From: an archaeon
GTDB taxonomy: Archaea; Thermoproteota; Nitrososphaeria; Nitrososphaerales; Gagatemarchaeaceae
Direction: 5' to 3'
Length of the DNA: 64,000 nt
Assembly: GCA_021819035.1 (NCBI GenBank)
Contig: JAKASL010000001.1
Location: forward strand, 930,001 to 994,000
The translations under genes and the position numbers were made by a program. The notes under the pieces were generated by a model that made no database searches, had not been told where the DNA came from, and saw only the letters and a program-made list of their open reading frames with translations. Positions 8,710-56,003 of the stretch are shown one piece after another. Each line of letters begins with the position of its first letter. Position 1 is the stretch's first letter.

Positions 8710-9309
8710 TTGAGGGTATCCAACCGCGGGAGGCGTGCCATCTCAGAGCTCGTGGCGAGCGTCCTGCTCATCGCCATAACCCTCATCACAGGCTTCGCTG
8801 TCTGGGGGTACGTCGACGGGCAGGCGGGGACGACAGAGCGGGCCTACGGGCAGAGCGTCGGCGCGACGGCGAACTACCTCCAGGAGAAGTTCGTCGTGGT
8901 GAGCATGGACCTGAGCACAGGCACGGCCGCCACGGTCTGGCTCTACAACAACGGCAACGTCGGCCTCCGGCTCGTCCAGGTCAGGCTCTACGACTCGGCG
9001 GACAAGATAGACCTTCTCTACAACTACACCGTCAGCGGGTCCACGAAGACAGACTACGTCTACGACCTGCTGAGCACAAGCCCGGCTGAGTGCAAGACGG
9101 CTGCCTCCACCTACGAGACCCCCCTTCTCTCGACCGTGGACGCGGGGCCGGGGACCACCCAGTCCCTCAAGCTGAGCATCCCTCCATCGCAGACCGGATG
9201 CCCGTCGTTCGGGCAGACTTTCTCCTCGAACGTCGTCTACTCGGCGGTGGTCCTTGCCGCCTACGGGAACACGGCTACCTTCTCTGAAAACGACACGCAG
9301 TACGGCTAA
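8710..9309 (+). CDS. Type IV pilin-like protein 1
   Basis: It has 199 residues with an archaeal class III signal peptide: a short basic leader (VSNRGRRAISE) followed directly by a hydrophobic helix, LVASVLLIAITLITGFAVWG. Cleavage by prepilin peptidase is expected near the Ala-Ile-Ser-Glu junction, leaving a helix that packs in the pilus core. The rest is a beta-rich, Thr/Ser/Asn-rich domain with two Cys (near 127 and 159). TTG 8710 is about 27 bases after a TATA box, so the mRNA is probably leaderless. It is the first gene of a pilus operon, 12 bases before the second pilin. Confidence 0.85.
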   Translation: MRVSNRGRRAISELVASVLLIAITLITGFAVWGYVDGQAGTTERAYGQSVGATANYLQEKFVVVSMDLSTGTAATVWLYNNGNVGLRLVQVRLYDSADKIDLLYNYTVSGSTKTDYVYDLLSTSPAECKTAASTYETPLLSTVDAGPGTTQSLKLSIPPSQTGCPSFGQTFSSNVVYSAVVLAAYGNTATFSENDTQYG

Positions 9310-9321
9310 GGTGGGCCTAAG

Positions 9322-10434
9322 ATGAGAATCCCCAGGCTGAAGAGCAGGAGGAAGGGCGTCGCCGGCATCATCGCGGCAGTGCTCATGTTCACTATGCTGT
9401 TCACCGTGGGCGCGGGGTACTTCCTGTATGTGAACCAGGCCAACACGGTGTACACGAAGGCCCTCTTGGCCAGGGCAGGGGGGATCTCGAGCCAGGCAGA
9501 GGAGGCGCTCTCGCTCGCCACCGGGATCACCCCGGGGGGCCACATCAGCGTCTACGCGAACGACACGGGCGGCATCGGGATCAACATCACTTCGCTCTAC
9601 GTCCTGGGTCCGTCCGGCGCCACCCTGGTGTGCATGGGCGTCGGGCTGCCGAGCGGCTGCGCCAACGGCGCCCCCTTCCCCGTCTGGGTGAACGTGGGCG
9701 GGGGGAGCGGGCTCATCGACACGGGCTACGCGCCGGTATCGGGCGACGTGTACACGATAAAGGTCGTGACGCAGAGGGGGTCTGTGTTCTCTGCGACGTA
9801 CCCGACAGCAGCCACGTCCTTGGCCGCGAGGGCGCTGTCGAGCGGGGCAATCGGAGACTTGTATCTCGAATTCGGCTCGTATTATTACTACGACCTGACT
9901 CAATCTGGCTGCGACTCTTCCTCCGGCTGGTGCATGAGTAACGCCGTCGGAACCTCGGCCTTCGCCATCCCGTCATCGATCGCGACCGCGTCTCCGATTG
10001 CTTTTTCGGTGGTGGTGACAGACCTCAACCCCAATCAGCTGAACATAACGCTCGACCAATTCTCTGTACTCGAGCAGCTCATGATTCACGGTGTTACGCT
10101 CCAACCTACCACCTGGTATATTAGTTCGAACACGTCTACTGGGATCGACGCATACTACAAACCAGTGGTGTTGGTGTACGACCAGCCGACCTTCTTGCTC
10201 TTTGCCGCTACTGCCAATCCTGTATGCATCGAGGGCCAGTCGTCTCCAACCTGCTCGACGTTCACGGCGAGCGCCCTCACTTGCCAAGCTGGCAACAAGG
10301 GCGCCTGTCCGGGAGTGACCGCCCCGGTCTTCTTGGTCTCACACGGCTGTCTCGGCATGGAGCTTTCCAAGTGCACATACGCTACCGCCAACTACGGCCA
10401 GAACTCCCCGTACGTCACAACCCTCTACACATAG
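9322..10434 (+). CDS. Type IV pilin-like protein 2 (large)
   Basis: It has 370 residues, with a basic leader (RIPRLKSRRKGVAG) then the hydrophobic helix IIAAVLMFTMLFTVGAGYFL, again a class III signal layout. The exported part is rich in Gly, Thr, Ser and Tyr and has several Cys pairs (GCDSSSGWC, VCIEGQSSPTC, near 190-330), suggesting disulfides outside the cell. It is much longer than a typical major pilin, so it may be a minor or tip pilin. It sits between pilin 1 and the secretion ATPase, with only a few bases on each side. Confidence 0.8.
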   Translation: MRIPRLKSRRKGVAGIIAAVLMFTMLFTVGAGYFLYVNQANTVYTKALLARAGGISSQAEEALSLATGITPGGHISVYANDTGGIGINITSLYVLGPSGATLVCMGVGLPSGCANGAPFPVWVNVGGGSGLIDTGYAPVSGDVYTIKVVTQRGSVFSATYPTAATSLAARALSSGAIGDLYLEFGSYYYYDLTQSGCDSSSGWCMSNAVGTSAFAIPSSIATASPIAFSVVVTDLNPNQLNITLDQFSVLEQLMIHGVTLQPTTWYISSNTSTGIDAYYKPVVLVYDQPTFLLFAATANPVCIEGQSSPTCSTFTASALTCQAGNKGACPGVTAPVFLVSHGCLGMELSKCTYATANYGQNSPYVTTLYT

Positions 10435-10443
10435 TGATTGACC

Positions 10444-12066
10444 ATGAAACTAGGCTTTGGCGGCGGAAAGAAGCAGGGGCTTGTGGAGAAGGCCCAGCAG
10501 AAGCGCAGCTTCGTCGTCCGCTTCCCATTCACCGGCACCCCCGTCCCCGCCGGGGGGAGGCTCCTCGACCGGTACCCCCTGATCAACCCCTACGCCTACG
10601 CCGCGGTCGTCGAGGACGAGAGCGGTGGGAGGAGGTACTACCTCGACGAGGTCCCGCTCACCCATGGCGAAGCGAACGTCTACAGCTACATCCTCGACAA
10701 GCTAGAGACCGAGCTCACCATCCCGCGCACCGATGTCGACCCCAAGAAGTACTTCGCCGACCAGGCCAAGCGCATCGTCGCGAAGTACGGGATCAACGTC
10801 GCCCCCATCCCCTGGGCCAAGATCCTCTACTTCGCCGAGAGAGACCTCGTCGGCTTCGGCGTCCTCGACGCGATGCTGAAGGACCCCAACATCGAGGACA
10901 TCTCGGTGGACGGCGTCGGAAAGCCCATCTTCGTCTACCACCGGCGTTTCGAGAGTCTTGGGACGAACCTGGTGTTCGCCAAGGACGCGGACCTCGACAG
11001 CCTGATCACGCGGCTCGCCCACATGTCGGGGAAGCACATCTCCACCGCCTTCCCCATACTCCAGGGGACGCTCCCGGGACGCCACAGGCTTATGGCGACC
11101 TTCAGGCGTGAGATCTCCCCGTATGGGAGCACGTTGACCATACGCAAGTTCAGAACGGACCCTCTCACCGTCATAGACCTGCTCAACTCGCGCGTCATCG
11201 ACCAGAAGATGGCCGCCTACTTCTGGCTCCTGATGGAGAACAAGGCGACCTCGTTGATCGTTGGCTCGACAGGCTCCGGTAAGACGACACTGCTCAACGC
11301 CCTCCTCACCATGACCAGGACCAACTCCAAGATCGTCACGATAGAAGAGGTGCAGGAGGTCAACATACCCCACTTCAACTGGACCGCCCTCCTCGCCAGG
11401 GAGAACTACGGGGCCACCGGGGACATCTCCAGCCAGGTCAACCTCTTCGACCTGGTGAAGGCGGCCATGAGGATGAGGCCGGACATCATCGTGGTGGGAG
11501 AGGTGAGAGGGGAGGAGGCGTACGTCCTCTTCCAGGCGATTTCGACCGGTCACGGGGGGATGTGCAGTCTGCACGCCGACGACGTGGAGTCCGCCGTCCA
11601 GAGGCTGACATCCAAGCCCATGGACGTCCCTCCAGCGTTCATCCCGTTCCTCGACCTCACCTTCACCGTCCGGAGGATATCCATCCCCAACCCCGGCGGC
11701 GGCTTCCGCGCCGTGAGGCGGATAGTCTCGGTCGACGAGGTCGTCAAGGCGGGCGAGTACTTCAACGCCTTCAGGTGGAGCCCTGCCACCGACGCCTTCA
11801 AGCCGTCCGAGCTCAGGGGGAGCCCCAAGCTCAACAGGCTCGCGAAGGACCTAGGCATGACACTCGCGGACGTCACGGAAGAGCTCAACAGACGGTCCAT
11901 CGTCCTCAGGTGGCTCCAGGAGCGGGGTGTCCGCAACTTCCGCGAGGTCTCGGCGGTCCTCGAAGACTACTCCGCGAGGCCCGCGCTGGTGTTCCAGAAG
12001 GCGACCAAGGAACTCGGGATCGCGGGGACCCCTGAGGCTGTCGCTGCGGAAGGCTTCAAGCTTTGA
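10444..12066 (+). CDS. Type II/IV secretion-system ATPase (FlaI/PilB/TadA-like)
   Basis: The hexameric cytoplasmic motor powers pilus assembly. It has 540 residues: an N-terminal domain (about 1-250) with NIEDISVDGVGKPIFVYHR, a typical GspE/TadA segment, then Walker A GSTGSGKTT near 274-282, the Asp box EEVQEVNIPH, the Walker B-like region RPDIIVVGEVRGEEA near 345 and a His box, ISTGHGGMCSLHADD. ATG 10444 is preferred; a TTG two codons earlier is possible. Its stop TGA overlaps the TTG start of the membrane partner, which indicates coupling. Confidence 0.95.
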   Translation: MKLGFGGGKKQGLVEKAQQKRSFVVRFPFTGTPVPAGGRLLDRYPLINPYAYAAVVEDESGGRRYYLDEVPLTHGEANVYSYILDKLETELTIPRTDVDPKKYFADQAKRIVAKYGINVAPIPWAKILYFAERDLVGFGVLDAMLKDPNIEDISVDGVGKPIFVYHRRFESLGTNLVFAKDADLDSLITRLAHMSGKHISTAFPILQGTLPGRHRLMATFRREISPYGSTLTIRKFRTDPLTVIDLLNSRVIDQKMAAYFWLLMENKATSLIVGSTGSGKTTLLNALLTMTRTNSKIVTIEEVQEVNIPHFNWTALLARENYGATGDISSQVNLFDLVKAAMRMRPDIIVVGEVRGEEAYVLFQAISTGHGGMCSLHADDVESAVQRLTSKPMDVPPAFIPFLDLTFTVRRISIPNPGGGFRAVRRIVSVDEVVKAGEYFNAFRWSPATDAFKPSELRGSPKLNRLAKDLGMTLADVTEELNRRSIVLRWLQERGVRNFREVSAVLEDYSARPALVFQKATKELGIAGTPEAVAAEGFKL

Positions 12067-13793
12067 AGCGCACTGGTCCGTCCGCCGCAGAGCCGAAGCC
12101 GAACCTGGGCCCGCTGGACGTCGTCTCGGGGTTTTCGTACAGGGTGTTCGGGCGGTACTCGAACGGCATAGCGGAGAACAGCCCCTGGCTCAGGGACGAG
12201 ATACTGAGCTCGAACATGCGCATAACCCCTGAGGGGCTGATCTCCCTCGCCTTCTTCGGGAGCGTCCTCTCGGCCCTGATCTTCGCCGCGGAGCTCGGCG
12301 TCGCCCTGGCGATCGCCAACCCCTTCCTGCTGCTGATATCCGGCGCCTTCGCCGCCACGCCCCCGTTGGTCTTCCTCCTCATCATGAGGTCGCCCAGGAT
12401 AAGCCAGGGCTCAAGGTCGGCGGCCCTCGAGAACGAGCTCCCGTTCGTGGTCGGCTTCATAGTCGTCCTCGCAGGGGGCGGGATCTCACCCATCGCCTCC
12501 CTGCGGCGGATCGCCAAGATGGCGGGCATATTCCCCAACGCGGCCAAGGAGGCGAATAGGATCCTCCTGGACATCGACGTGTTCGGCCTCGACCCCGTCT
12601 CCGCCCTCGAGAAGGCGGCAGAGACCAACCCGAACAAGCCTTTCGCCGAGCTCCTCTACGGGTACACCACCATAATCAAGACGGGGGGGGACATGAACTC
12701 CTTCCTCAACAACAAGCTCAAGGAGATCTATGAAACGAGGTCCATCAAGGTCAAGAAGGCGTCCGAGACGATTGGGACCCTCGCCGAGGGGTACGTGACA
12801 ATCACCTCCGTCCTGGGGATAAGCCTCTTCGTCCTGTTCCAGTCTCAGGCGCTGATCAGCCACAGCTCGTCCGGGCTCCAGGGCATCGAGGTGTTCGGGC
12901 TCGTGGGGGTCCCCGCGTTCTCCATGCTCTTCATGTACATGCTGAACGCGGTGCAGGCGAGGTACCCGTACGTAGACTACAGGGCGTACAAGGCCTTCGG
13001 GCTCTCAGTCCCCGTCGGCGTCGTGCTCTTCGCCCTCCCCCTCCCTCTGAACCTGTTCTTCCACACCTCGGCCGCCCTGCTCGGCGCGACCGTCGCCCCG
13101 ATGGTGGTGGCCATCCGTGCCGCCAGGGAGAAGAACGCGCTCGAGAAGGCCCTCCCAGACTTCATCCGCGACATCTCCGAGGGGAGGAAGATAGGGCTCT
13201 CCCCCGAGCAGACGATCCAGGCGCTCGCGGACAAGCACTACGGCCTCCTCTCCAAGCACGTCAAGAAGATGAGCTCCCAGGTCTCGTGGGGTGTCTCGAC
13301 GGTCCAGGTCATCAGGACCTTCGCCGAGGGGGTGAAGAGCTGGGTGACCAGAGAAGCAGGGATGCTCCTCACCGAGGTGATAGACGTCGGGGGCGGGACG
13401 GTCAGGAGCTTCTCCGACCTGGCCGACTTCACCCGCAAGATAAACGACCTCGAGGGGGAGAAGCGCTCCGCGCTCAAGCCCTACCTGTTCATCAACTACT
13501 TCGCTGCGATAATGGTGATAGTCACCACGTTCATCATGGCATACTTCATCACCACCCCCATCAACCTGGGCCCGACGGGGGGGCTCGCCTCCGCGCCCCC
13601 GACGGTCGACAAGGGGTCCATCGACATCCTCCTCACTGTGGCCGTGTTCGAGAGCTGGTTCATCGGGATGGTGGGGGGGAAGATGGGGGAGGGGAGCGTG
13701 TCAGACGGGTTCAAGCACGCGTTCGCCCTGGTCGTCATAGCCATGGTCTCCGTGTTCATCGCCCAGGGGTTCTTGCACCTCAGCCTGCTTTAG
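12063..13793 (+). CDS. Pilus assembly platform protein, double GspF/TadC (FlaJ-like)
   Basis: This integral membrane platform works with the preceding ATPase. It has 576 residues and at least eight hydrophobic segments, including LISLAFFGSVLSALIFAAEL, FLLLISGAFAATPPLVFLL, a pair near 260-300, a group near 325-360 and a final pair near 475-500 and 520-575. Two cytoplasmic GspF-type domains are visible, around FGLDPVSALEKAAETNPNKP and around the EGRKIGLSPEQTIQALAD stretch. The TTG start overlaps the ATPase stop (TTGA). Double-GspF proteins are common in archaeal adhesion-pilus loci. Confidence 0.9.
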   Translation: MKRTGPSAAEPKPNLGPLDVVSGFSYRVFGRYSNGIAENSPWLRDEILSSNMRITPEGLISLAFFGSVLSALIFAAELGVALAIANPFLLLISGAFAATPPLVFLLIMRSPRISQGSRSAALENELPFVVGFIVVLAGGGISPIASLRRIAKMAGIFPNAAKEANRILLDIDVFGLDPVSALEKAAETNPNKPFAELLYGYTTIIKTGGDMNSFLNNKLKEIYETRSIKVKKASETIGTLAEGYVTITSVLGISLFVLFQSQALISHSSSGLQGIEVFGLVGVPAFSMLFMYMLNAVQARYPYVDYRAYKAFGLSVPVGVVLFALPLPLNLFFHTSAALLGATVAPMVVAIRAAREKNALEKALPDFIRDISEGRKIGLSPEQTIQALADKHYGLLSKHVKKMSSQVSWGVSTVQVIRTFAEGVKSWVTREAGMLLTEVIDVGGGTVRSFSDLADFTRKINDLEGEKRSALKPYLFINYFAAIMVIVTTFIMAYFITTPINLGPTGGLASAPPTVDKGSIDILLTVAVFESWFIGMVGGKMGEGSVSDGFKHAFALVVIAMVSVFIAQGFLHLSLL

Positions 13794-13844
13794 GGGGAGG
13801 ATAGACTCGGAATTCTTACCCTGGTTCCTTGTAGCTGAAATATC

Positions 13845-15737
13845 TTGAAGCGCCCCATCAGGCTCAGGATGCCGAGCAGGCTGAGCAGGACGGTCGTCGC
13901 CATACTCGTAGCGCTCTTCCTGCTGAGCCTGGCCGCCAGGGGGTACGCGGCTGCCCCGGCGGGGTCGCCCAGGTACCTGTCGCTCTCCACCCTCCCCCCA
14001 GACCTCCCGACCAGCTCCAACGGGACGTCGTCATATCCGGCCCTCGTGGTTTCTGTGAAGGACGCCCAGGGGGACCCTGTCGTCCTCCCCAACGACACGG
14101 AGGTCTACCTCTCCTCGTCTTCGCCTATCATAGGGGTCCAGCCCACCGTGACGATCATGGCGGGCGAGCAGTACGCGGTGGCCGAGGTCGCCACCACCGA
14201 GACCCCCGGGAACGCCACCATCACTGCCGTGGCCCCCGGCTTCCAGGCGGCGTCGACTTCGTTCACGACAAGCCTTCCGAGGGGCTTCCCCACCCAGCTG
14301 GAGGCGTTCCCCCTCCCCGGCGAGCTCCTCGCCGGCACGCCTACCACGGCCAACGTCACAGTGGAGGTCCTCGACGCGGCCGGCCTCCCGGCGAGGACCA
14401 TCCAGAGCACACCTGTGCAGCTGACGTCGTCGAACACCGCGGTACTTGTCGCCACGGGGACCACGATCCCGGCGAACCAGACCCTGGGCTTCGGGAGCGT
14501 CAGCGTCAACGGGGGGGAGGGAGGGGTGGCCTACGTCACCGCGTCCGCCTCCGGGTTCGTCAGCTCCACGGCCACCGTGACAGTCGCCAGCGTCCTCGGC
14601 AACCCGAACACGCTCCAGGTCGCCGTCCCCCCCGACCTCCCGGCCGACGGGAAGACGTACGACGTCCTGACCGTCTCCCTGACATCAAACGCGACCCGCC
14701 CCGCTGTCTCGCAGACAGGGACTTCTGTCCTCCTCACCTCCTCGGCCCCCAACCTCGTCTCAGTCGACGTCTCGGGGCCCGTCCTCATCCCGGCAGGCCA
14801 GACCTTCGTCGCGGTCCCCATCACCACGTCCGCGTCCGCCGGGTCTGCGTACATCACCGCCTCCTCCCCCAACTTCGTCTCGTCCACGGTCGAGGTGACC
14901 ACGGTGAGCATCCCGCCGACCAAGCTCGGGGTCTACCTCTCCGACAGCCGCGCGCTCTTCTCCCCCACGGCAGACAAACTCGACCTCGTCGTCCAGCTGC
15001 AGGACGCCAGGGGGGTCCCTGCGGATGCGAGGGCCGCGGAGAGCGTGATAGTCTCGTTCTCCAACGCCACCCTCTCCAAGGCGCTCGTCACCCTGACCGT
15101 CCCCAAGGGGTCTGACCTGGCATACACCGCCGTCCCCCTCAACGGGGCCACCTCGGGGACGTTCACGGCCATCTCCAACGGGCTCTTCTCTGCCTCGGCC
15201 GCCTTCTCCTCGACCCTCCTCGGGGTCACTGACAGCATCGGCCCCGACCACCAGACGATATACCCGAACGAGACCGACCCGGTCTACTACTCGCTGCAGT
15301 ACCAGGGGCTCCCTCTCCTGGGCGCCTCCCTGACCTGGTCGGCCAAGGGGGGGACAGTCTCCCCGGAGACGTCAACGACGGGCTCCACAGGCGCGGCGTC
15401 TGCTACTTTCACCCCCACCGGGATAGGGATAGCCTCTGTCACGGTGACGGCCAAGGACCCGGTGGTGGGCTCGGTGAACTCGACCACCCAGATATTCGTC
15501 ATCGCCCTTCCGCCCGTGAAGGCGCCCCCCTCAGTCCTCGCCCGTATATTCGGCAACAAGCTCTACCTGGGGGCCGTCGTAGGGGGGGCGGCGGCGGCCG
15601 TGCTGGTCGCAGTCATCCTCCTGCGCAGGCGCGGAGGCGAGACAGTAGAGGACGAAGGCTCTCTGGACATGGGGCCGGCGCTGGGTGAGGGGACCGCCTA
15701 CGACCCCCGGGGCGGGCTGCCTACTTCCCGATGGTGA
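13845..15737 (+). CDS. Large secreted Ig-like surface protein with C-terminal membrane anchor
   Basis: It has 630 residues. A Sec-type signal (basic RLRMPSRLSRT, then VVAILVALFLLSLAARGYA) is followed by repeated beta-sandwich-like units of about 90-110 residues, each with elements such as ITASSPNFVSSTVEVTT or VTASASGFVSSTATVTV. This is the pattern of invasin/BIg-type repeats. A transmembrane helix near 573-593 is followed by an Arg-rich stop-transfer RRR and an acidic cytoplasmic tail. It may start at TTG 13845 or ATG 13869; a GAAATATC box near 13836 slightly favours the latter. It could be an adhesin or pilus-associated scaffold. Its 3' end overlaps the convergent ATPase gene by 17 bases. 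Confidence 0.75.
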   Translation: MKRPIRLRMPSRLSRTVVAILVALFLLSLAARGYAAAPAGSPRYLSLSTLPPDLPTSSNGTSSYPALVVSVKDAQGDPVVLPNDTEVYLSSSSPIIGVQPTVTIMAGEQYAVAEVATTETPGNATITAVAPGFQAASTSFTTSLPRGFPTQLEAFPLPGELLAGTPTTANVTVEVLDAAGLPARTIQSTPVQLTSSNTAVLVATGTTIPANQTLGFGSVSVNGGEGGVAYVTASASGFVSSTATVTVASVLGNPNTLQVAVPPDLPADGKTYDVLTVSLTSNATRPAVSQTGTSVLLTSSAPNLVSVDVSGPVLIPAGQTFVAVPITTSASAGSAYITASSPNFVSSTVEVTTVSIPPTKLGVYLSDSRALFSPTADKLDLVVQLQDARGVPADARAAESVIVSFSNATLSKALVTLTVPKGSDLAYTAVPLNGATSGTFTAISNGLFSASAAFSSTLLGVTDSIGPDHQTIYPNETDPVYYSLQYQGLPLLGASLTWSAKGGTVSPETSTTGSTGAASATFTPTGIGIASVTVTAKDPVVGSVNSTTQIFVIALPPVKAPPSVLARIFGNKLYLGAVVGGAAAAVLVAVILLRRRGGETVEDEGSLDMGPALGEGTAYDPRGGLPTSRW

Positions 15738-16389
15738 ACTGGATCCACTTCTGGACCAGCGGGGTGGCCTGCATCCTGCTCGCCATCATGAACCTCCCCT
15801 GGTCGGACACCCTCATCCTGACCGTCCCGTCAGTGGAGTACTCCACCGCCGCCACCGTCCTCGGCGCGTGGACCCCCTCCTCGAGCATCAGCAGTCCCGT
15901 CACCCCGTTCTCCCTCAGCTTCTGCCGCAGATGGTCTAGGAACTTCAGGGACTTGTCCACCCCGACGTACTTGACGAAGTCTGTGAAGGAGTCGACCACC
16001 AGGCGCTCGTCCCGGTCAGGGTCGACATTCGAATCGCCGAAGAGCTTGGTCAGGGAGACGGAGACGTCGGTCAGCGAGGCGAGCGAGACGGAGTACTTCG
16101 AGCGCTTCCCCCCCAGCCTCCACGAGTAACAGTCCAGGACGTGGAGCCTCTCGGGGACCCCCTCGGTCCAGCGGAACATCGCCATTGTCTCCGCGATGGC
16201 CTGGTCAGCCTCCGCGGTGGACACCAGGAACGCCTGGTCCCCCATGACCAGCCCGGTGTGGAGGAAGAGCTTCCCGAGTATGCTCTTCCCTGCCCCCGGG
16301 GGGCCGAGGACCAGCACCAGAGAGCCCTTCGGCACCCCGCCGAGTATCACCTGGTCTAGCTCGGGGACCCCGAGACTTAGCCTGTTCAC
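15721..16389 (-). CDS. KaiC/RadA-superfamily ATPase (FlaH-like) A
   Basis: It has 222 residues from GTG 16389, beginning NRLSLGVPELDQVILGGVPKGS, the usual KaiC/FlaH opening, then Walker A LGPPGAGKSILG near 35 and Walker B RLVVDSFTDFVKYVG near 140. The C-terminal part VEYSTDGTVRMRVSD is the family's last strand pair. FlaH-type proteins regulate or stabilise archaellum and pilus motors by binding ATP. Here two such genes flank one promoter beside a pilus operon. The frame remains open upstream but GTG 16389 lies 28 bases from the shared TATA box. Confidence 0.85.
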   Translation of the reverse strand: MNRLSLGVPELDQVILGGVPKGSLVLVLGPPGAGKSILGKLFLHTGLVMGDQAFLVSTAEADQAIAETMAMFRWTEGVPERLHVLDCYSWRLGGKRSKYSVSLASLTDVSVSLTKLFGDSNVDPDRDERLVVDSFTDFVKYVGVDKSLKFLDHLRQKLRENGVTGLLMLEEGVHAPRTVAAVEYSTDGTVRMRVSDQGRFMMASRMQATPLVQKWIQFTIGK

Positions 16390-16413
16390 GGTCCCCGCAG
16401 CCGCCCGCAAACG

Positions 16414-16420
16414 CTTAAAG
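16414..16420. promoter_or_regulatory. Palindromic TATA box shared by two divergent KaiC-like genes
   Basis: CTTAAAG read on either strand gives a TATA-like box (CTTTAAG on the minus strand). Its centre lies 28 bases from the minus-strand GTG at 16389 and 28 bases from the plus-strand TTG at 16445. No other A/T-rich element exists between the genes. A single box recruiting TBP in either orientation would produce two leaderless transcripts. Confidence 0.6.
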
Positions 16421-16444
16421 ACTTTGCAGCACAGATTGGGGACG

Positions 16445-17176
16445 TTGCACACCCATGTGGGGGTGAAGGGGGTGGACGCCCTCCTCGACGGGAAGGGCAT
16501 CCCGAGCGGGCACAACGTCCTGGTGCTGGGCGCCCCCGGGAGCGGGAAGACCACATTCGGCCTCCAGTACCTGGTGGCCGGCGCAAAGGCGGGCGAAAAC
16601 GGCGTTTACGTTTCCCTGGACGAGGACCCCGCGAGGCTCCTGGAGAGCACCGAGCCCCTCGGGCTGGGGGCCAAGGAGGCGGTGGCGGCCAGGAAGATAG
16701 CGGTGGTGGACGCGTCCCCCATCAGGCTCCTCCCCCCGAAGGTGAAGCTCGGCACGACCGAGATCGGCAGGAAGGAGTTCGCCGTCGCCACGCTGATCAA
16801 CTCCGTGACCGACGCCATCAAGAAGGTGGCGGCCAAGAGGGTCGTCATCGACCCCATCTCGACCCTGGTCGTCCACTACTCCGACGACTACGAGAGGAGG
16901 ATAGCCCTCCTCGACCTGATGGCCGCCACGGTCAAGAGCAGGTGCACCACGCTCCTGGTGGCAGAGATGAGCGACCCCTCCCTGGAGCGGAAGTACCAGT
17001 TCGAGGAGTTCATAGTGGACGGGGTCCTGGTCCTCACCAGGGTCCTGAGCGGCCAGACGTTCACACGCGTGTTCAGCGTGGAGAAGATGAGGGGGATAGA
17101 CAACGACAGCCAGCCGCACCCCTACAGGATATCCGAAGGAGGCATCGAGGTCTTCCCGACGGAGCAGCTCTTCTAG
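16445..17176 (+). CDS. KaiC/RadA-superfamily ATPase (FlaH-like) B
   Basis: It has about 243 residues, with VGVKGVDALLDGKGIPSGHN then Walker A LGAPGSGKTTFG near 37, YVSLDEDPARLLE near 65, Walker B RVVIDPISTLVVHYSD near 140 and the C-terminal LTRVLSGQTFTRVFSVEKMRG. The start may be TTG 16445 or TTG 16436; the TATA spacing favours 16445. It is a paralogue of the divergent gene but clearly distinct in sequence. KaiC-like proteins of this size often act as signalling ATPases. The neighbouring pilus genes and wHTH regulator suggest control of surface structures. Confidence 0.85.
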   Translation: MHTHVGVKGVDALLDGKGIPSGHNVLVLGAPGSGKTTFGLQYLVAGAKAGENGVYVSLDEDPARLLESTEPLGLGAKEAVAARKIAVVDASPIRLLPPKVKLGTTEIGRKEFAVATLINSVTDAIKKVAAKRVVIDPISTLVVHYSDDYERRIALLDLMAATVKSRCTTLLVAEMSDPSLERKYQFEEFIVDGVLVLTRVLSGQTFTRVFSVEKMRGIDNDSQPHPYRISEGGIEVFPTEQLF

Positions 17177-49023: not shown

Positions 49024-50271
49024 ATGGCGATCAAGATGCTCACCCTCGAGGACCTCGAGCTCGAAGGGAAGCGTGTCTTCCTGCGCGTCGACATCAACAC
49101 CCCTATCCACCCTGAGACAGGGGCGCTGATGGAACGGACCCGGCTCGAGGAGGCCGCGCTGACCGTGAAGGACCTGTCGAAGTCCAAGGTCGTGGTGGCG
49201 TCGCACCAGGGGCGGGTCGGGAGGTCGGACTACACCAGCCTCGAGGCGCACGCCAGGGCCCTCGGCGAGATCCTAGGGAGGGAGGTCAGCTTCGTCCCCG
49301 ACGTCTTCGGCCCCGAGGCCCTGTCCCGGATCGACTCCCTCGGTGACGGGGAGGTGCTCATGCTAGACAACCTGCGGTTCACCGCCGAGGAGAACCAGGA
49401 GTACGAGCCGGGGGAGGCGGAGAAGACGTTCCTCGTCAAGAGGCTGAGGGGGCACGTGGACGCGTGCGTCCTCGACGCCTTCTCCACGGCCCACAGGGCC
49501 TCCCCCACCGTGGTCGGGTTCGCAGGCCTGGTCCCCACCTGCGCCGGGAGGACTGTCGGGAGGGAGCTGAGGATGCTCGACAGGATAGCGACGGTGGAGA
49601 AGGGGCCATATGTGACCGTCCTCGGCGGAGCGAAGGTGAACGACCGCCTCGAGGCCATAGACGCGCTAATCGCCAACGGCAGGGCCGACAGGGTCCTCCT
49701 CTCCGGGGTGGTGGGGCTGGTCTTCCTGAAGGCGGCGGGGAAGCTCAGGGGGGACGTGGGCGTCGACAAGGAGCAGGCGCTTGTGGTCAGGGCGAGGCGC
49801 CTGATGGACGACGACGCCGACCGCTTCGTCCTCCCGTCTGACTTGGCGGTCAGGGCGGAGGGGGGGCGGAAGGAGGTCGAGCCGTCGCAGGTTGCTTCGG
49901 CGTCCCAGGTCCTCGACATCGGGTCGAAGTCGGTAGACAAGTTCGCGCGCTACATCAAAGGGGCCGGGACGGTATTCATGAGCGGGCCGCCTGGTGCCTT
50001 CGAGTGGGAGGAGTTCAGCCTTGGGACGGAGGGGCTGCTCAGGGCGATGGCGTCGTCGCTTGGGACCACCATAATCAGCGGGGGGCACCTGTCGACCGCA
50101 CTCCGCAAGTACGGCATCAACGACCAGATCGACCACATCAGCACCGCCGGGGGCGCCCTCGTCCAGTACCTCGCGGGGAAGCGGCTCCCGCTGGTCGACG
50201 CCCTCGAGAGGGCAGCGGAGAGGTGGGGGCGCCCCCTTCACGAACAGGCCAGGCGACAGGAGGCTGCCTAG
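49024..50271 (+). CDS. pgk: Phosphoglycerate kinase
   Basis: It interconverts 1,3-bisphosphoglycerate and 3-phosphoglycerate with ADP/ATP. It has 415 residues. The N-terminal motif KRVFLRVDINTPI carries the substrate-binding Arg/Asp, followed by SHQGRVGRSDYTSL (family SHLGRP), VLMLDNLRF near 113, VLGGAKVNDRL near 200, SGPPGAFEWEEFSLGT near 320 and a C-terminal ISGGHLSTALRKYG. The archaeal length and the following gap gene make this a glycolytic/gluconeogenic pair. A CATATAATC element lies near 48985. Confidence 0.95.
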   Translation: MAIKMLTLEDLELEGKRVFLRVDINTPIHPETGALMERTRLEEAALTVKDLSKSKVVVASHQGRVGRSDYTSLEAHARALGEILGREVSFVPDVFGPEALSRIDSLGDGEVLMLDNLRFTAEENQEYEPGEAEKTFLVKRLRGHVDACVLDAFSTAHRASPTVVGFAGLVPTCAGRTVGRELRMLDRIATVEKGPYVTVLGGAKVNDRLEAIDALIANGRADRVLLSGVVGLVFLKAAGKLRGDVGVDKEQALVVRARRLMDDDADRFVLPSDLAVRAEGGRKEVEPSQVASASQVLDIGSKSVDKFARYIKGAGTVFMSGPPGAFEWEEFSLGTEGLLRAMASSLGTTIISGGHLSTALRKYGINDQIDHISTAGGALVQYLAGKRLPLVDALERAAERWGRPLHEQARRQEAA

Positions 50272-50276
50272 GCGGC

Positions 50277-51293
50277 ATGATCAGGGTCGGGGTCAACGGC
50301 TACGGGACGATAGGGAGGAGGGTGGCAGACGCGGTGAAGAAGCAGAAGGACATGGAGCTGGTCGGCGTGACCGCGGGGCACCCCCACTACAAGTACGCCG
50401 TGGCCAGCGAGAAGGGGATTCCGCTCTACGCCCGGGACATGAAGAGCCTGGAGGCGTTCAACAAGGAGGGGTACGCCCTCAGGGGGACGCTCAACGACCT
50501 CCTCCAGCGGGTGGACGTCGTGGTCGACGGGGCCCCCGAGGACAGCGGGCCGGCCAACAAGGCCGTCTATTCCCAGGCAGAGGTGAAGGCGGTCTTCCAA
50601 GGAGGGGAGGAGCACGAGCTGACGGGGACGTCCTTCGTCGCCCAGTGCAACTTCGACCGCGCGGTGAAGAAGCAGTCGGTCCGCGTGGTCTCCTGCAACA
50701 CCACGGGGCTGTGCAGGGTCATCGACGCCGTAGACAAGGGCCCTGGGGTGTCGAGGGCGAGGGCGGTGCTTGCCAGGAGGGCCACAGACCCGGACGACGT
50801 GAAGAAGGGCCCCATCGACGCCGTCGTCCTGGACCCCACCACGGTCCCGTCGCACCACGGCCCCGACGTCCGGACAGTCCTCCCTGGGATAGAGATAGTC
50901 ACCATGGCGTTCAAGGTCCCGACCACCCACATGCACCTGCACAGCGTCATCCTGAGCCTGAAGTCCAAGGCGGGGAGGGAGGACGTGGTGAAGGCGCTGG
51001 AGGCGGCTCCGCGGGTGAACCTGGTGGACGGGAAGTCTGGGTTCAAGTCCACGGCCAACATAATGGACTGGGCGAGGGAGAAGGGGAGGGACAGGAACGA
51101 CGTCTACGAGGCGACGGTCTGGAGGGACTCGGTCACCGTCGTGGACGGCGACGCGTACTTCTTCCTCGGGGTCCACCAGGAGGCGATAGTGGTGCCGGAG
51201 AACGTCGACGCCGTCAGGGCCCTGGCCGGCGGGTACGCCAGGGAGGACTCGATGAAGCTCACCGACGAGTCCCTTGGGATAGCTCACAGGTAG
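50277..51293 (+). CDS. gap: Type II (archaeal) glyceraldehyde-3-phosphate dehydrogenase
   Basis: It has 338 residues, the archaeal length. The N-terminal Rossmann motif VGVNGYGTIGRRVADA binds NAD(P), the catalytic Cys is in VRVVSCNTTGLCR near 140, and VPSHHGPDVRTVLP near 195 plus KVPTTHMHLHSV near 220 are archaeal-type signatures. It oxidises glyceraldehyde-3-phosphate to 1,3-bisphosphoglycerate, the substrate of the preceding kinase. ATG 50277 is 5 bases after the pgk stop, so the two are cotranscribed. Confidence 0.95.
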   Translation: MIRVGVNGYGTIGRRVADAVKKQKDMELVGVTAGHPHYKYAVASEKGIPLYARDMKSLEAFNKEGYALRGTLNDLLQRVDVVVDGAPEDSGPANKAVYSQAEVKAVFQGGEEHELTGTSFVAQCNFDRAVKKQSVRVVSCNTTGLCRVIDAVDKGPGVSRARAVLARRATDPDDVKKGPIDAVVLDPTTVPSHHGPDVRTVLPGIEIVTMAFKVPTTHMHLHSVILSLKSKAGREDVVKALEAAPRVNLVDGKSGFKSTANIMDWAREKGRDRNDVYEATVWRDSVTVVDGDAYFFLGVHQEAIVVPENVDAVRALAGGYAREDSMKLTDESLGIAHR

Positions 51294-51523
51294 GGACGCT
51301 GCAGGCCTGGCGAACAAGCGGCCGGGCGCGGAGAGCACGCTGCCGGCAACGCGGCAGGAGCTGTCCGGGCTCTCAGCCGCTTCAGCCCCGGGGGGCCTGG
51401 TCCAGCTCGCTCATGCCTCGGGGGTGGCCACCTCCATCGTCTACGCGCTCCTGCAGGATAGTGGCGGCCAGACCGTCGCGATCAACCTCACATCCCTCGC
51501 CGAGCCTGACAAGCGTCACCCTG

Positions 51524-52495
51524 GTGACAAGCAGGGGGCTCTACATCACCTCCCAGGTCCAGACGGCGCAGGAGACGAAGCAGGTCACCACCTATCAGCA
51601 GGAGCGGGCCCAGGAGCCGGGCCAGAGGCTGGTCGGGTACAGCGTCTATGAGACGACCGACTCATTGGTAGGCTACACTGTAGCGGAGGCCACCTGGTCG
51701 AGCGTGCAGTCGGGTTACGACGTGACCGCCCACTACCCGGTGACCACTCAGGTCCTCTCGGGCTACGACCTCTACACGACCGTGGCCCGGACCACATACG
51801 CCTCCCCGCCTGGGTGGAGCAACACCGGGGACGGCCTCTGCTCCTACTCCTACAGCTACACCACCACATACACCACGACAGAGACGGTCATGCACGGGTA
51901 TGAGGTCTGCGTCCCCATCGACGTCAGGACCGGAGCCTGCGTGTGGAGGTGCATCTGGCCGTTCTGCTGGACCTCGACCGTGAACGTGGCCAACGTCGTC
52001 GTCCACTACGTGACCGTCTACACGGACGCGTCAGCCACCACCACATACACGCAGGAGTACGACGGCTTCTCGTCCAGCTGCCCCTACTACGCCTACCAGC
52101 TCGGGATGGCCTGCGACCCCGTATACACCACCCAGACGGCCTACCAGAGCGAGTCGCTCGGCCAGCTGTCGTACTGCCCGGCGCCGGACCGGTACACCAG
52201 GACCTACTACTCCTGCTCGCCGGTGTACCACCAGCAGACGACCACGACCAGTCCCGGCCAGCTCCCGTATTGTCCAGCCGGAAGCTCGGCCACCCAGTAC
52301 TCGTGCTCGCCGGTGTACCAGTCGCGGACGACGAGCCTTGGCCAGATGAGCTACTGCCCGTCAGGCTCGCAGTACTCCTGCTCGGCGGTCTACAGCGCCT
52401 ACAACTACTGGGTCACCGAAACAGTTCCCGTCGTGACCACAGTCAGCTACGAGACCGTCTCGACCTTGGGGAGCGCATGGTTAATCGGTGGATGA
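51524..52495 (+). CDS. Tyr/Thr/Cys-rich repeat protein
   Basis: It has at least 323 residues and an extreme composition. The first half repeats GYxVYETT-like units (VGYSVYETTDSLVGY, SGYDVTAHYPVTTQV, SGYDLYTTVARTTYA). The second half has three units of the form GQ[LM][SP]YCP-xxx-YSCSPVY-xxx-TTT. Cys occur in pairs that could form disulfides outside the cell. The start is uncertain: GTG 51524 or ATG 51413; no signal peptide is visible from either. A second open frame upstream (about 51301-51520) ends in a protein-like stretch, VAINLTSL, so a frameshift near 51500 is possible. No known family. Confidence 0.55.
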   Translation: MTSRGLYITSQVQTAQETKQVTTYQQERAQEPGQRLVGYSVYETTDSLVGYTVAEATWSSVQSGYDVTAHYPVTTQVLSGYDLYTTVARTTYASPPGWSNTGDGLCSYSYSYTTTYTTTETVMHGYEVCVPIDVRTGACVWRCIWPFCWTSTVNVANVVVHYVTVYTDASATTTYTQEYDGFSSSCPYYAYQLGMACDPVYTTQTAYQSESLGQLSYCPAPDRYTRTYYSCSPVYHQQTTTTSPGQLPYCPAGSSATQYSCSPVYQSRTTSLGQMSYCPSGSQYSCSAVYSAYNYWVTETVPVVTTVSYETVSTLGSAWLIGG

Positions 52496-52687: not shown

Positions 52688-55318
52688 TTGAACCACAGGT
52701 TGAGAATCCTTCCCGAGGTTCTGATTTTGGCGGGATTGCTCGTTCTCACCATGGGAACATCTACAATCGCCCATTCCCAAAACGCGGTTCTGTCCCCACA
52801 GCCAGACGCTCAAAGCTCCGCCCTTTGCCTATGCCATTCGTCGCAGGTTCACGGAGCAACGTCAATGCCGCCTCCTATGGGCGCTCCCGCTGACCCGACA
52901 TCCTACGACGAGCAGATAGGAATGACATTCACCCAAAATTTCGTTTCTCTCGCGTATAATGTGACGGCAGTGGAACAGTCGGACCCATCTTCCGGCTATG
53001 GGCCCGCTTATCTTCTAAACGGGTTATCAGACTCGGGGTACTGGTACCAGGTTGGTCTTTCATGGAATTGGGATGGAAATGGGACATACTCCAACTACAG
53101 CCCCGGGTTCAATCTCAACTATGAAGTCTTCGACCCGAGTGGAAACTCCATCTTCCCAACCAGCGGATATGGTGGCATTCAACGGTTCTCAGGTCCGGTA
53201 TACGCTGGTGACACGGTCTTGCTCAACCTGTACTTCTCAAGCACCTATGGAGTCGTGATGCTGGCGAAAGACTACAACACAGGTTCAACCTCTTTTCAGA
53301 CTTACAGCGCAGAAGGAGGGTCCCAGTTCATCGGTCTGAGTGGAAGCGCCTCAAATTCGAACGGGTTCTTTACCGGCCTGATGACCGAATGGTATCACTC
53401 TTCTGCGTTCTACGGCAACATCTCTCCTGTCGTATACTCGAACCCTCACTACGCACTCAAATCCGCCTGGATGTGGATTGATGAATTCAGTTGCCCTGAT
53501 GTCACTTGTAGCAACCGAACTCTCCTTTTCGATGATGCAACTCCCAGCCCCGTTTCTTACCCAAATCCCACCCAACGACAGGAGTTCTCTTCCCACGGTG
53601 CCACGGAATTCAGCGATGCGTACGGCCTGATCACCGGACCAGCTTACTGGTCGCTGACTGTCAGCTACGCCATCAAAGGAGGAGGCTCAGGATTCGGTCA
53701 GCCGACCTTTACTTATTCGTACAACGGGGTGAACCAGTCTGTTGCACTAACACAGTCCCCTGCCTCCTACCTCGTTGACGCGGGGAGTGCTTGGAGCGTC
53801 ACCCCTGCCCTCTCCGGCTCCACTCTGACGGAAAGGTGGGAAGTAGGTAGTCAGGAAGCGACCGGGGTCGCAACCTCTTCGCAGATAATCACTTTCGTCT
53901 ATCAGCATCAGTATCGGCTGTTTGTGGACGGCGGGAGTGGTGGTGCCGACGGTGACGGATGGTACGACTCTGGCTCCACCGCAGTCGCCTCCTCGTCGGG
54001 GGTCTACGACCGTGCAGACGGCTCCGGCGACCGCGTTGTTTCCTATTCCGTCGATGGTATCGTCACACAGGTCAATCCCACTACCAATGTGATATCAGTT
54101 GACATCGTTATGAACGCCTCGCACCAGGTGGCCTTTGCTTCAACCAAACAATACGAGATTGTGCTAGATCAAGGAGCAACCAAGGCGCTCAACGCCATAA
54201 CTCCGCCGACAGTGAGCGGAGACCAGTATTGGTACGACGCAGGCACCCAAGTCAGCCTTACGCTGAACGGGATATGGGGGAGAGCTTCGGGGGTGGGCAG
54301 CCGACTTGTCTCGTATTCGTTGAATGGCGGCACTACGATTCAGACCAGCACTACAGGCGTGGTAACCGTCATCCCTCTGGAGCCAATCATGTCTCCAGAG
54401 TCAGTAACAACGACCACGATTTCCCAATACCAACTGACGTCTAATATGGGGGTCTTGGTTTCTGTAACTTCGCCAACGATAGGTGGGGATTCGGGCTGGT
54501 ATGACGCAGGCTCCAACGTCTCAGTGACCTATTACAACGCATGGGATGTGTCACCCACGCGATCCAGAGTTGTCGCTACTGGCTACGCTGTCAACGGAGG
54601 GAATGTAACTATGATGCGGGAGTCTGGCAATGGCACCTTCACAGTCAGTTTGAGAATGAACGGCCCTGAGACCGTAACAGTCAACTCGGCCACACAGTAC
54701 TACGTTTCGTTCAAGGTCACCGACTCCTCGGGGTCCAGGAAAATCACTCCAGCGGACCTACAGATAATCGTGAACAATCAGGTACAAGATGTCAAAGGGT
54801 TTAGCGCCTGGCTTGACAACGGCACCACGTTCACTGTTTCGAAGTTGACCTACGAAGGTGTCGATGTCAAACCTGTTCCACAGACGGAATACGTCGTCAC
54901 TGGGCCCAGCACAGTGACTCTCGAGGCACGGGTCTACAACGCTACATTGAAGCTAACAGACTTTCTTGGACTTCCAGTCGCCGGTGCCAAGGTGAGCTTG
55001 ATTCTGGCCAACGGCACTACGATAGCTGGATTGACAGGTGGTGATGGCACCTTCGTAGCTGCCAGCATTCCCTTGGGTAACTTTAGCGGGACGGTTTCGA
55101 ATCTGGGCTTGACCGTCAAAGTGATTGGCGACGCTTCCAAGCAGAGTGTCACTTCGGTGTCGATTCTGTTCGGGGCCACTTCGTTGGGGTTAGTAGTCGT
55201 ACTAGTCTTGATTGCAGTAGGTGTCTCGGTTTTCTTGCTCCGACGGAGGCCCAGAGGCCATACCCCCCAGCTTACCGGCGTTCAGGCTCCTCAACCCCTC
55301 ACGTCCGCCTCCTGGTAG
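52688..55318 (+). CDS. Large secreted surface protein with WYDAGS-type repeats and C-terminal anchor
   Basis: It has 876 residues from TTG 52688, with a TTTATG box about 27 bases upstream. A signal peptide (VLILAGLLVLTMGTSTIA) precedes a beta-rich N-terminal domain. Repeats of about 75-90 residues, each with a 'GWYDSGS/YWYDAGT/GWYDAGS' core, then 'SR[VL]V...Y.[VL][ND]G', lie between about 410 and 670; these resemble InlB-like B repeats of archaeal surface proteins. A PEGA/CNA-like domain follows, then a membrane helix near 832-852 and an RRR stop-transfer. It contains many Asn-x-Ser/Thr sites. It is visibly less GC-rich than flanking genes. Confidence 0.75.
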   Translation: MNHRLRILPEVLILAGLLVLTMGTSTIAHSQNAVLSPQPDAQSSALCLCHSSQVHGATSMPPPMGAPADPTSYDEQIGMTFTQNFVSLAYNVTAVEQSDPSSGYGPAYLLNGLSDSGYWYQVGLSWNWDGNGTYSNYSPGFNLNYEVFDPSGNSIFPTSGYGGIQRFSGPVYAGDTVLLNLYFSSTYGVVMLAKDYNTGSTSFQTYSAEGGSQFIGLSGSASNSNGFFTGLMTEWYHSSAFYGNISPVVYSNPHYALKSAWMWIDEFSCPDVTCSNRTLLFDDATPSPVSYPNPTQRQEFSSHGATEFSDAYGLITGPAYWSLTVSYAIKGGGSGFGQPTFTYSYNGVNQSVALTQSPASYLVDAGSAWSVTPALSGSTLTERWEVGSQEATGVATSSQIITFVYQHQYRLFVDGGSGGADGDGWYDSGSTAVASSSGVYDRADGSGDRVVSYSVDGIVTQVNPTTNVISVDIVMNASHQVAFASTKQYEIVLDQGATKALNAITPPTVSGDQYWYDAGTQVSLTLNGIWGRASGVGSRLVSYSLNGGTTIQTSTTGVVTVIPLEPIMSPESVTTTTISQYQLTSNMGVLVSVTSPTIGGDSGWYDAGSNVSVTYYNAWDVSPTRSRVVATGYAVNGGNVTMMRESGNGTFTVSLRMNGPETVTVNSATQYYVSFKVTDSSGSRKITPADLQIIVNNQVQDVKGFSAWLDNGTTFTVSKLTYEGVDVKPVPQTEYVVTGPSTVTLEARVYNATLKLTDFLGLPVAGAKVSLILANGTTIAGLTGGDGTFVAASIPLGNFSGTVSNLGLTVKVIGDASKQSVTSVSILFGATSLGLVVVLVLIAVGVSVFLLRRRPRGHTPQLTGVQAPQPLTSASW

Positions 55319-55399: not shown

Positions 55400-55797
55400 T
55401 CAGGAACTCCACCAGACGTCCCCGTAGGAAATCACCACCCCAACGCTCTGGAAGGACGGGCTGACTGGAAATGTCGAGGTTCCACGGGGTGCGACAGTGA
55501 CGGCCTTGGCCAGGGCCACCACCTGCTGCTGGCCTCCGCCATTGACCCCGATGTAGTAGGAGATCGCGGCGGTCGTCGGGCCGTCGTTGCGGACGGTGAC
55601 CGTCCCGGAGCTCAGGCTCACCGACAGGCTCTCGCCTGCCTTCCCAACGACGACCAGCTGGGCGTCCGCCGCCTGCCTCGCCATAGAATAGTGGGCGGCC
55701 GTGAGGGCGGCGAAGAGGCCGAACACGACCATGGCGAGTGCTATGAAGAAGAGTGCCCGATTGTCTCGGCCTGGGCTCTTCTGGACCTGACCTTCAT
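55400..55797 (-). pseudogene. Type IV pilin-like gene with a frameshift in the signal helix
   Basis: ATG 55797 starts MKVRSRRAQAETIG, a class III pilin leader, then the frame runs into a stop. Adding one G in the GGG run at 55755-55757 restores ALFFIALAMVVFGLFAALTA and a pilin of about 132 residues ending in VGVVISYGDVWWSS. So a one-base deletion in a homopolymer separates leader and body. It could be a mutation or a sequencing error. A TCTTAG-like element lies about 27 bases upstream. The body alone starts at ATG 55732 but would lack the processing site. Confidence 0.7.
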
Positions 55798-55865
55798 CCC
55801 ACAGGCAGGACCGCTCTGACTAAGAAGAGGAAAGGCTTGGACACGACCAGGCCCGCTCTTGGCTT

Positions 55866-56003
55866 CTACTGTGCAGCCACCGTGACCACTTGCGCCCGGG
55901 TCGCTCCGTTGGCGAATGTGGCCGTCGCCTTTACGGCGTAGGACGCGCCAGAAACAGCCGTCCCTGTGAACGCGGCGCTGACGCCGCCGCCTGGCTGGGC
56001 CGG
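55866..56003 (-). pseudogene. C-terminal remnant of a pilin-like protein
   Basis: A frame with no start codon, running from the SHMT stop at 56005 to TAG 55866-55868, encodes GGGVSAAFTGTAVSGASYAV then TATFANGATRAQVVTVAAQ. This resembles the C-terminal strands of archaellins and type IV pilins, which commonly end 'SGxSYxVxVTAxFADGxT'. The N-terminal part is gone, apparently replaced by the SHMT gene. It lies directly upstream of the frameshifted pilin. Confidence 0.5.

Follow-up and report, generated by a model that had tools for sequence, protein, structure and literature searches.

The tyrosine-, threonine- and cysteine-rich frame analysed in this work is most likely a headless and decaying duplicate of a surface protein that belongs to a pilus locus and is restricted to a single genus. 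What looked like an orphan frame belongs, in broken form, to a family defined at the level of the genus, whose working copy is located elsewhere in the same genome. The window, i.e. the whole 64-kb stretch of DNA under study (G000:C3:930001-994000), contains this frame on its plus strand, open from upstream of 51301 up to a stop codon at 52493-52495. Its main part (51491..52495) matches family positions 125-456 plus the stop (E 2.5e-179) and includes 38 tyrosines, 54 threonines and 13 cysteines among 328 residues. GYxV(Y)ETT-like repeats occupy 51635..51781 (plus strand), with extra copies in one intact gene (G004), and the variants GYSVYETT, GYTVAEAT, GYDVTAH and GYDLYTT are all found in the window frame. 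Sequence and a repeat search delineate three cysteine units on the same strand, GQLSYCPAPDRYTRTYYSCSPVY (52160..52228), GQLPYCPAGSSATQYSCSPVY (52256..52318) and GQMSYCPSGSQYSCSAVY (52340..52393). Their GQ[LM][SP]YCP cores are DNA repeats starting at 52159, 52255 and 52339 (second and third copies 79% and 75% identical to the first), and their YSCS[PA]VY cores start at 52208, 52298 and 52373 (95% and 90% identity to the first), with SPVY in two of them and SAVY in the third. As the original prediction had it, the three paired cores and the GYxV repeats all lie in one frame (51491-52495). The frame has no Pfam match, and a scan for bacterial-type promoters, which does not cover archaeal ones, gave nothing on the plus strand.

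The same prediction had taken the protein to be of no known family, and it asked for a search of related repeats; this search overturned the first view. An own-genome search retrieved an intact paralogue that is 83% identical to the window frame (matched segment C3:522810-523790), a complete 458-aa gene starting with MNAQSHRRKGIASLPVSIFFVALVVTAMVGVGTLAAGQ and placed directly after a gene for a 158-aa pilin-like protein. Scanning named genomes yielded three loci, in two metagenome-assembled genomes (MAGs), Nitrososphaerota FK2_bin.84 and archaeon LSA3.bin14, where homologues are 61-92% identical, which excludes a chance origin of the frame. Matches were obtained in nine of the 61 genomes searched (own and relatives), all of the own Nitrososphaerota genus. 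At the level of the order, 400 genomes sampled from a larger group gave ten matches, which does not prove absence elsewhere: the same nine, and one of another genus (G033) by the N-terminal part only. Full-length genes number seven in six genomes (G000, G004:C68, G009, G019:C304, two in G023, and G029); a further copy that starts at a contig edge, G019:C94, is among the family rows of the column comparison. An orphan gene of no family was dropped as a candidate once relatives were found. Other candidate origins gave nothing: the viral contigs returned eight pattern matches, none a relative, and the plasmids zero matches; two intact genes were without match in PHROGs, and no tRNA or Rfam feature occurs within the 64-kb window.

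Directly upstream, the genes of phosphoglycerate kinase (PGK; 49024..50271, plus strand; Pfam PF00162, E 2e-104) and glyceraldehyde-3-phosphate dehydrogenase (GAPDH; 50277..51293, plus strand; Pfam Gp_dh_C, PF02800, E 4e-21) anchor the locus. Homology to the family begins 1-8 nt past the GAPDH stop, at family position 37-39 (by tblastn, residue 39 falls at 51301). The window copy lacks the first ~36 residues of the family, which carry the signal and the beginning of the helix, and no class III signal is found in it. The early part of the copy, a 5' piece at 51295..51492 (plus strand; G000:C3:981295-981492, E 6.8e-15) that matches family positions 37-102, is in a different frame from the rest, and two stretches of the intact genes are absent. 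The protein-like frame formerly noticed just upstream is real, and the suggestion of a frameshift near 51500 was right in that the frame breaks there and that the upstream frame is part of the same gene. It fails as an account of the lost N-terminus: correcting the frame restores no signal peptide and, since the signal and the hydrophobic-helix start are missing, no frame change can give a secreted protein. Could the gene be truly full length here and only appear broken through assembly or base-calling? The genome itself (1.67 Mb in three contigs, 88% complete) would leave room for such an artefact, but the same break around 51500, the same GAPDH junction and the same internal gaps are present in the independent MAG FK2_bin.84 (G004:C15), at a general divergence of ~5% from the window. 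The shared lesions indicate a truncated gene copy and not a sequencing error; they contradict the artefact, to which we give almost no credit.

The headless copy can be followed across the genus. GAPDH homologues occur in 20 of 31 genus genomes (23 matches, of which 22 were tested, a 28% second match of G005 being omitted). Two of these 22 stop within the gene, lacking a 3' flank, which leaves 20 loci, two of them from G004. A family remnant lies behind GAPDH in six of the 20 loci, in differing states (G000, G004, G024, where the contig ends, G013, G008 and G029), as judged by tblastn at E 0.01 on flanks of ~1.5 kb (~340 nt for G024), a test that more distant or more decayed remnants would escape. 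The remnant of G024 is, by eye, broken differently from the window copy. In G008, G029 and G013 the headless copy is reduced to 3' pieces, those of G008 and G029 being the last ~74 residues only. The GAPDH coding sequences of G008:C26 and G029:C49 (L034 and L035) are identical (dS 0, dN 0), with matching remnants; these genomes, counted here as separate species, may be very closely related or have contigs in common. G013 holds, on a different contig from its GAPDH copy, a second 3' family fragment corresponding to the last ~57 residues (G013:C30; L033 8156-8710).

The remnant of a pair of minus-strand pilins is found at 55400..55924 (blastn, translation and alignment; for the second pilin, the 3' end alone is recognisable). 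The pilin of this region also occurs near five of the seven intact genes; it is broken in the window and open in G004:C15 (132-aa frame). Together with the family remnant, this broken neighbour makes the segment look like the duplicated end of a pilus locus that is now decaying. Between the headless copy and the pilin remnant sits an 876-aa surface-type gene (52688-55318). Its GWYDSGS-type repeats have a match (E 7e-16) in the tail of a G033 frame with a pilin head; such tail repeats occur both with and without a pilin head. A second type IV pilus locus, apparently complete, lies far upstream in the window (8710-17176). It comprises a small pilin-like frame (8710-9309) and a large pilin-headed frame (9322-10434), both with no Pfam match, a T2SSE ATPase (10438-12066; E 6e-35) and T2SSF (12063-13793; E 6e-23), together with two KaiC-type ATPases and a surface-type protein (13845-15737) that matches Big_1 weakly. 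The order of a small pilin followed by a large pilin-headed protein is repeated there.

Clues to the nature of the intact protein come from its N-terminus and its neighbours. It measures 456-493 aa, and all seven intact genes have by sequence a class-III-type N-terminus ([KR]-[KR]-G-IASLPVSIFFVALV), with a charged stretch, [KR]G and a hydrophobic segment. In 46 family genomes, the 158-aa pilin (at least 87% identity) turns up seven times, always immediately ahead of an intact gene. T2SSF is encoded near five of the seven (L003, L027, L028, L029 and L031). An AAA_10/VirB4-like ATPase scores above cut-off in L003, L025 and L028 and below it in L029, and the remaining three intact-gene contigs end within ~1.1 kb upstream of the 158-aa pilin. 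With a T2SSE ATPase at ~10.5 kb and T2SSF and pilins nearby, the intact gene of G000 lies in a type IV pilus locus. Among NCBIfam models, the L003 ATPase is nearest to VirB4-like and CedB ones, all far below cut-offs, and the pilin neighbour in G000 is below cut-off for UpsB/BasA-type models; two minus-strand pilins exceed the Pilin_N cut-off, and the 158-aa pilin falls short of it. The G004 pilus locus has a VirB4-like ATPase (L025 9937-11877, minus strand) near a small protein (L025 15378-15707) with a weak, below-cut-off match to T4SS_pilin (E 0.002); this small protein may belong to a Ced/Ted-type DNA-exchange system.

The intact protein itself gave no Pfam or NCBIfam family at E 0.1 in the two of seven sequences scanned (L003 and L006), and no PDB sequence match below E 0.4. 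A full-length structure model (pLDDT 36) was set aside. The model of the N-domain (residues 1-150, from two sequences) has a mean pLDDT of 68, mostly below 50 for residues 1-46 and in blocks of 71-89 for residues 61-150, and shows seven strands and three helices (18-25, 48-60 and 115-123). Its top Foldseek match, and the sole one below E 0.001, is the archaeal type IV pilin 8fk7 (E 1.5e-4, TM 0.39, rmsd 12.7); lamin Ig domains rank second and third, and other archaeal pili rank sixth and ninth with unrelated proteins between. This resemblance offers support, short of proof, for a pilin-type head. As for the tail, 10 of the 12 cysteines of the G029 gene stand, by eye, in CP-x(n)-C pairs, which would form disulfides. 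Since most cysteines of the intact protein are paired in this way and the setting is that of a pilus, the disulfide-rich extracellular fibre or coat envisaged by the original prediction is plausible for the intact relatives.

Passages of a 2016 census of archaeal pili (PMC4858521) describe proteins with class III signals, duplications and predicted adhesins in such loci. The family fits this kind of locus, and its tail and module exchange are the unusual part. The charged stretch, [KR]G and the hydrophobic segment of the type IV pilins with class III signals in that source recur in the intact homologues, which also lie in a locus containing pilins, T2SSE and T2SSF and have a modelled N-domain that resembles an archaeal pilin. 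Unlike archaeal type IV pilins, these homologues are much longer, with a Tyr/Thr/Cys tail of ~300 residues and no Pfam match, and the window copy is without any signal. The predicted adhesins or minor pilins treated in these passages (PMC4858521) share with the family their place in the locus, predicted surface exposure and lineage-specific sequence, but theirs carry DUF2341 (PilY-like), and adhesion by the present family is putative. Closer at hand, a 919-aa pilin-headed frame of G033 (L043), a genome of the same archaeal family, also comes, by sequence, after pilin-like frames and shows N-terminal similarity to family positions 5-143 (E 6.8e-7); it differs in its tail, made of other repeats that resemble those of the 876-aa neighbour of the window copy.

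The substitution pattern of the headless copies points to decay, with some restraint. The pair formed by the window copy and its G004 counterpart has a dN/dS of 0.50 (22 synonymous and 31 non-synonymous changes), in excess of GAPDH (0.13), PGK (0.17), the 876-aa gene (0.24) and each of the 21 pairings among full-length intact genes (0.06-0.36). Constraint on the headless frame is weaker than in intact genes. Nevertheless, the main frame is without stops over 328 codons in both genomes, against neutral expectations of 2.3/1.8 (P 0.09/0.16), and residues changed in 29 codons against 38.7/40.0 expected, in simulations that use the pair's own spectrum (P 0.0014) or the fourfold-site spectrum (P 0.0002) and place all changes on a single branch starting at the window copy. 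The 53 substitutions observed compare with 88 predicted by the fourfold-site rate. A family-invariant cysteine is lost in the window copy, and three cysteines are gained in the G004 copy. As 191 of 328 columns are invariant, the 13 of 29 residue differences that fall in such columns (~17 by random placement; two of the 13 judged from two comparison rows) mean that these are merely slightly avoided. Either the headless frame has stayed partly constrained since the species split or it has been repaired by recombination.

One way to account for such restraint would be a short soluble protein with a new role, expressed behind GAPDH from an internal start, for which the ATG at 51413 and the GTG at 51461 are in frame. 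The absence of stops and the amino-acid changes below neutral would agree with it, but cysteines have been both lost and gained, cysteine hairpins would sit in the reducing cytoplasm, and nothing but 3' pieces of the copy is left in three other genomes; we regard a translated product of this kind as very unlikely. On our preferred reading of a decaying duplicate, the product should not reach the surface, and the window copy most likely does nothing itself at present.

The central module of the protein exists in two unrelated versions. Version A is carried by the window copy (54 codons at 51845..52006, plus strand), G004:C15, the intact G000 gene and G019:C94, and version B by the other six of the seven intact genes. 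The intact genes of G000 and G029 have a common N-terminal part (dS 0.24) and different modules. Between G009 and G029, none of 47 same-residue codons differ in the B segment, against 55 of 92 in the N-terminal part and a GAPDH dS of 0.40, and none of 20,000 permutations reach a 50-codon stretch as uniform. From this pair, segment exchange within the family appears well supported, unless synonymous sites are unusually constrained there. Permutation gave p 0.00085 for intact G004/G029, 0.010 for intact G000/G029, 0.27 for intact G004/G023 and 0.63 for the two headless copies.

It is conceivable, though we think it unlikely, that the headless copy is a silent cassette from which gene conversion transfers the central module to the expressed pilus-locus gene, making the surface protein vary. 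In Neisseria, pilS silent cassettes feed pilE. As there, the copy is a 5'-truncated pilin-type one, without its own signal or helix start, and one tract appears nearer to the intact gene than the rest. In the G000 pair (intact versus headless), dS is 0.10 in the central segment (54 codons), 0.21 in the adjoining upstream segment and between 0.32 and 1.88 in the remaining five. Over alignment columns 206-325, i.e. the upstream segment and the centre together, 78 same-residue codons are identical and 6 different, against 136 and 44 in the flanks (Fisher p 0.00064), with segment limits chosen after inspection of the identity profile and twelve pairs tested, uncorrected. The two headless copies, used as a control, have no central contrast (Fisher p 0.26). 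G004, with module A in its headless copy and B in its intact gene, and the constraint seen on the open frame would also suit a cassette. Yet the sliding-window permutation for the G000 pair is not significant (p 0.14), and where several cassettes per genome would be expected, G000 and G004 each yielded a single headless copy. Unlike in Neisseria, the copy is down to 3' pieces in G008, G029 and G013, and no recent exchange is seen: the centre of the intact G000 gene is equally distant from the window copy (dS 0.10) and from the G004 copy (dS 0.11), so that no exchange since the species split is visible there. A role of the window copy as module donor is only suggested.

The VARTIG proteins of Thermococcales (PMC8416519) are likewise large archaeal proteins with a recombining segment. 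They differ in that their hypervariable modules are Ig domains, with the variable part C-terminal, and the abstract of that work mentions no pilus locus. Our search of titles and abstract openings on silent, variable or cassette-type archaeal pilins found no archaeal silent-pilin case among the papers listed, which is not proof of absence.

Taken as a decaying duplicate, the window copy can be placed in the following scheme. The intact protein would probably have its class-III-type signal cut by prepilin peptidase, and its N-terminal ~140 residues would probably form a pilin-type helix and a beta domain. This head may anchor the protein within a type IV pilus, or at its tip, the pilus being built by machinery encoded next to the gene, and would leave exposed a tail of Tyr/Thr-rich repeats and cysteine-paired hairpins that is likely a stiff disulfide-locked stalk or an adhesive decoration. 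Position and homology show that, in an ancestor of some members of the genus, the 3' part of the gene and the downstream pilins landed directly behind GAPDH, without the signal and the helix start; the headless copy later lost its frame or pieces of itself differently in several genomes. The central segment of the headless copy may have been affected by recombination with intact copies, which the data suggest and do not prove.

To conclude, the family is unusual in joining a probable pilin-type head to a tail of Tyr/Thr repeats and cysteine hairpins, with a middle segment in two unrelated versions, one of which appears to have moved between species (G009/G029). Module exchange at an archaeal pilus locus becomes testable with environmental long reads. 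There is a small chance that an archaeal counterpart of pilin variation by gene conversion is at work here, the headless copies behind GAPDH keeping alternative central modules readable and passing them to the intact gene. If true, gene conversion would give exchangeable surface types within one genus.
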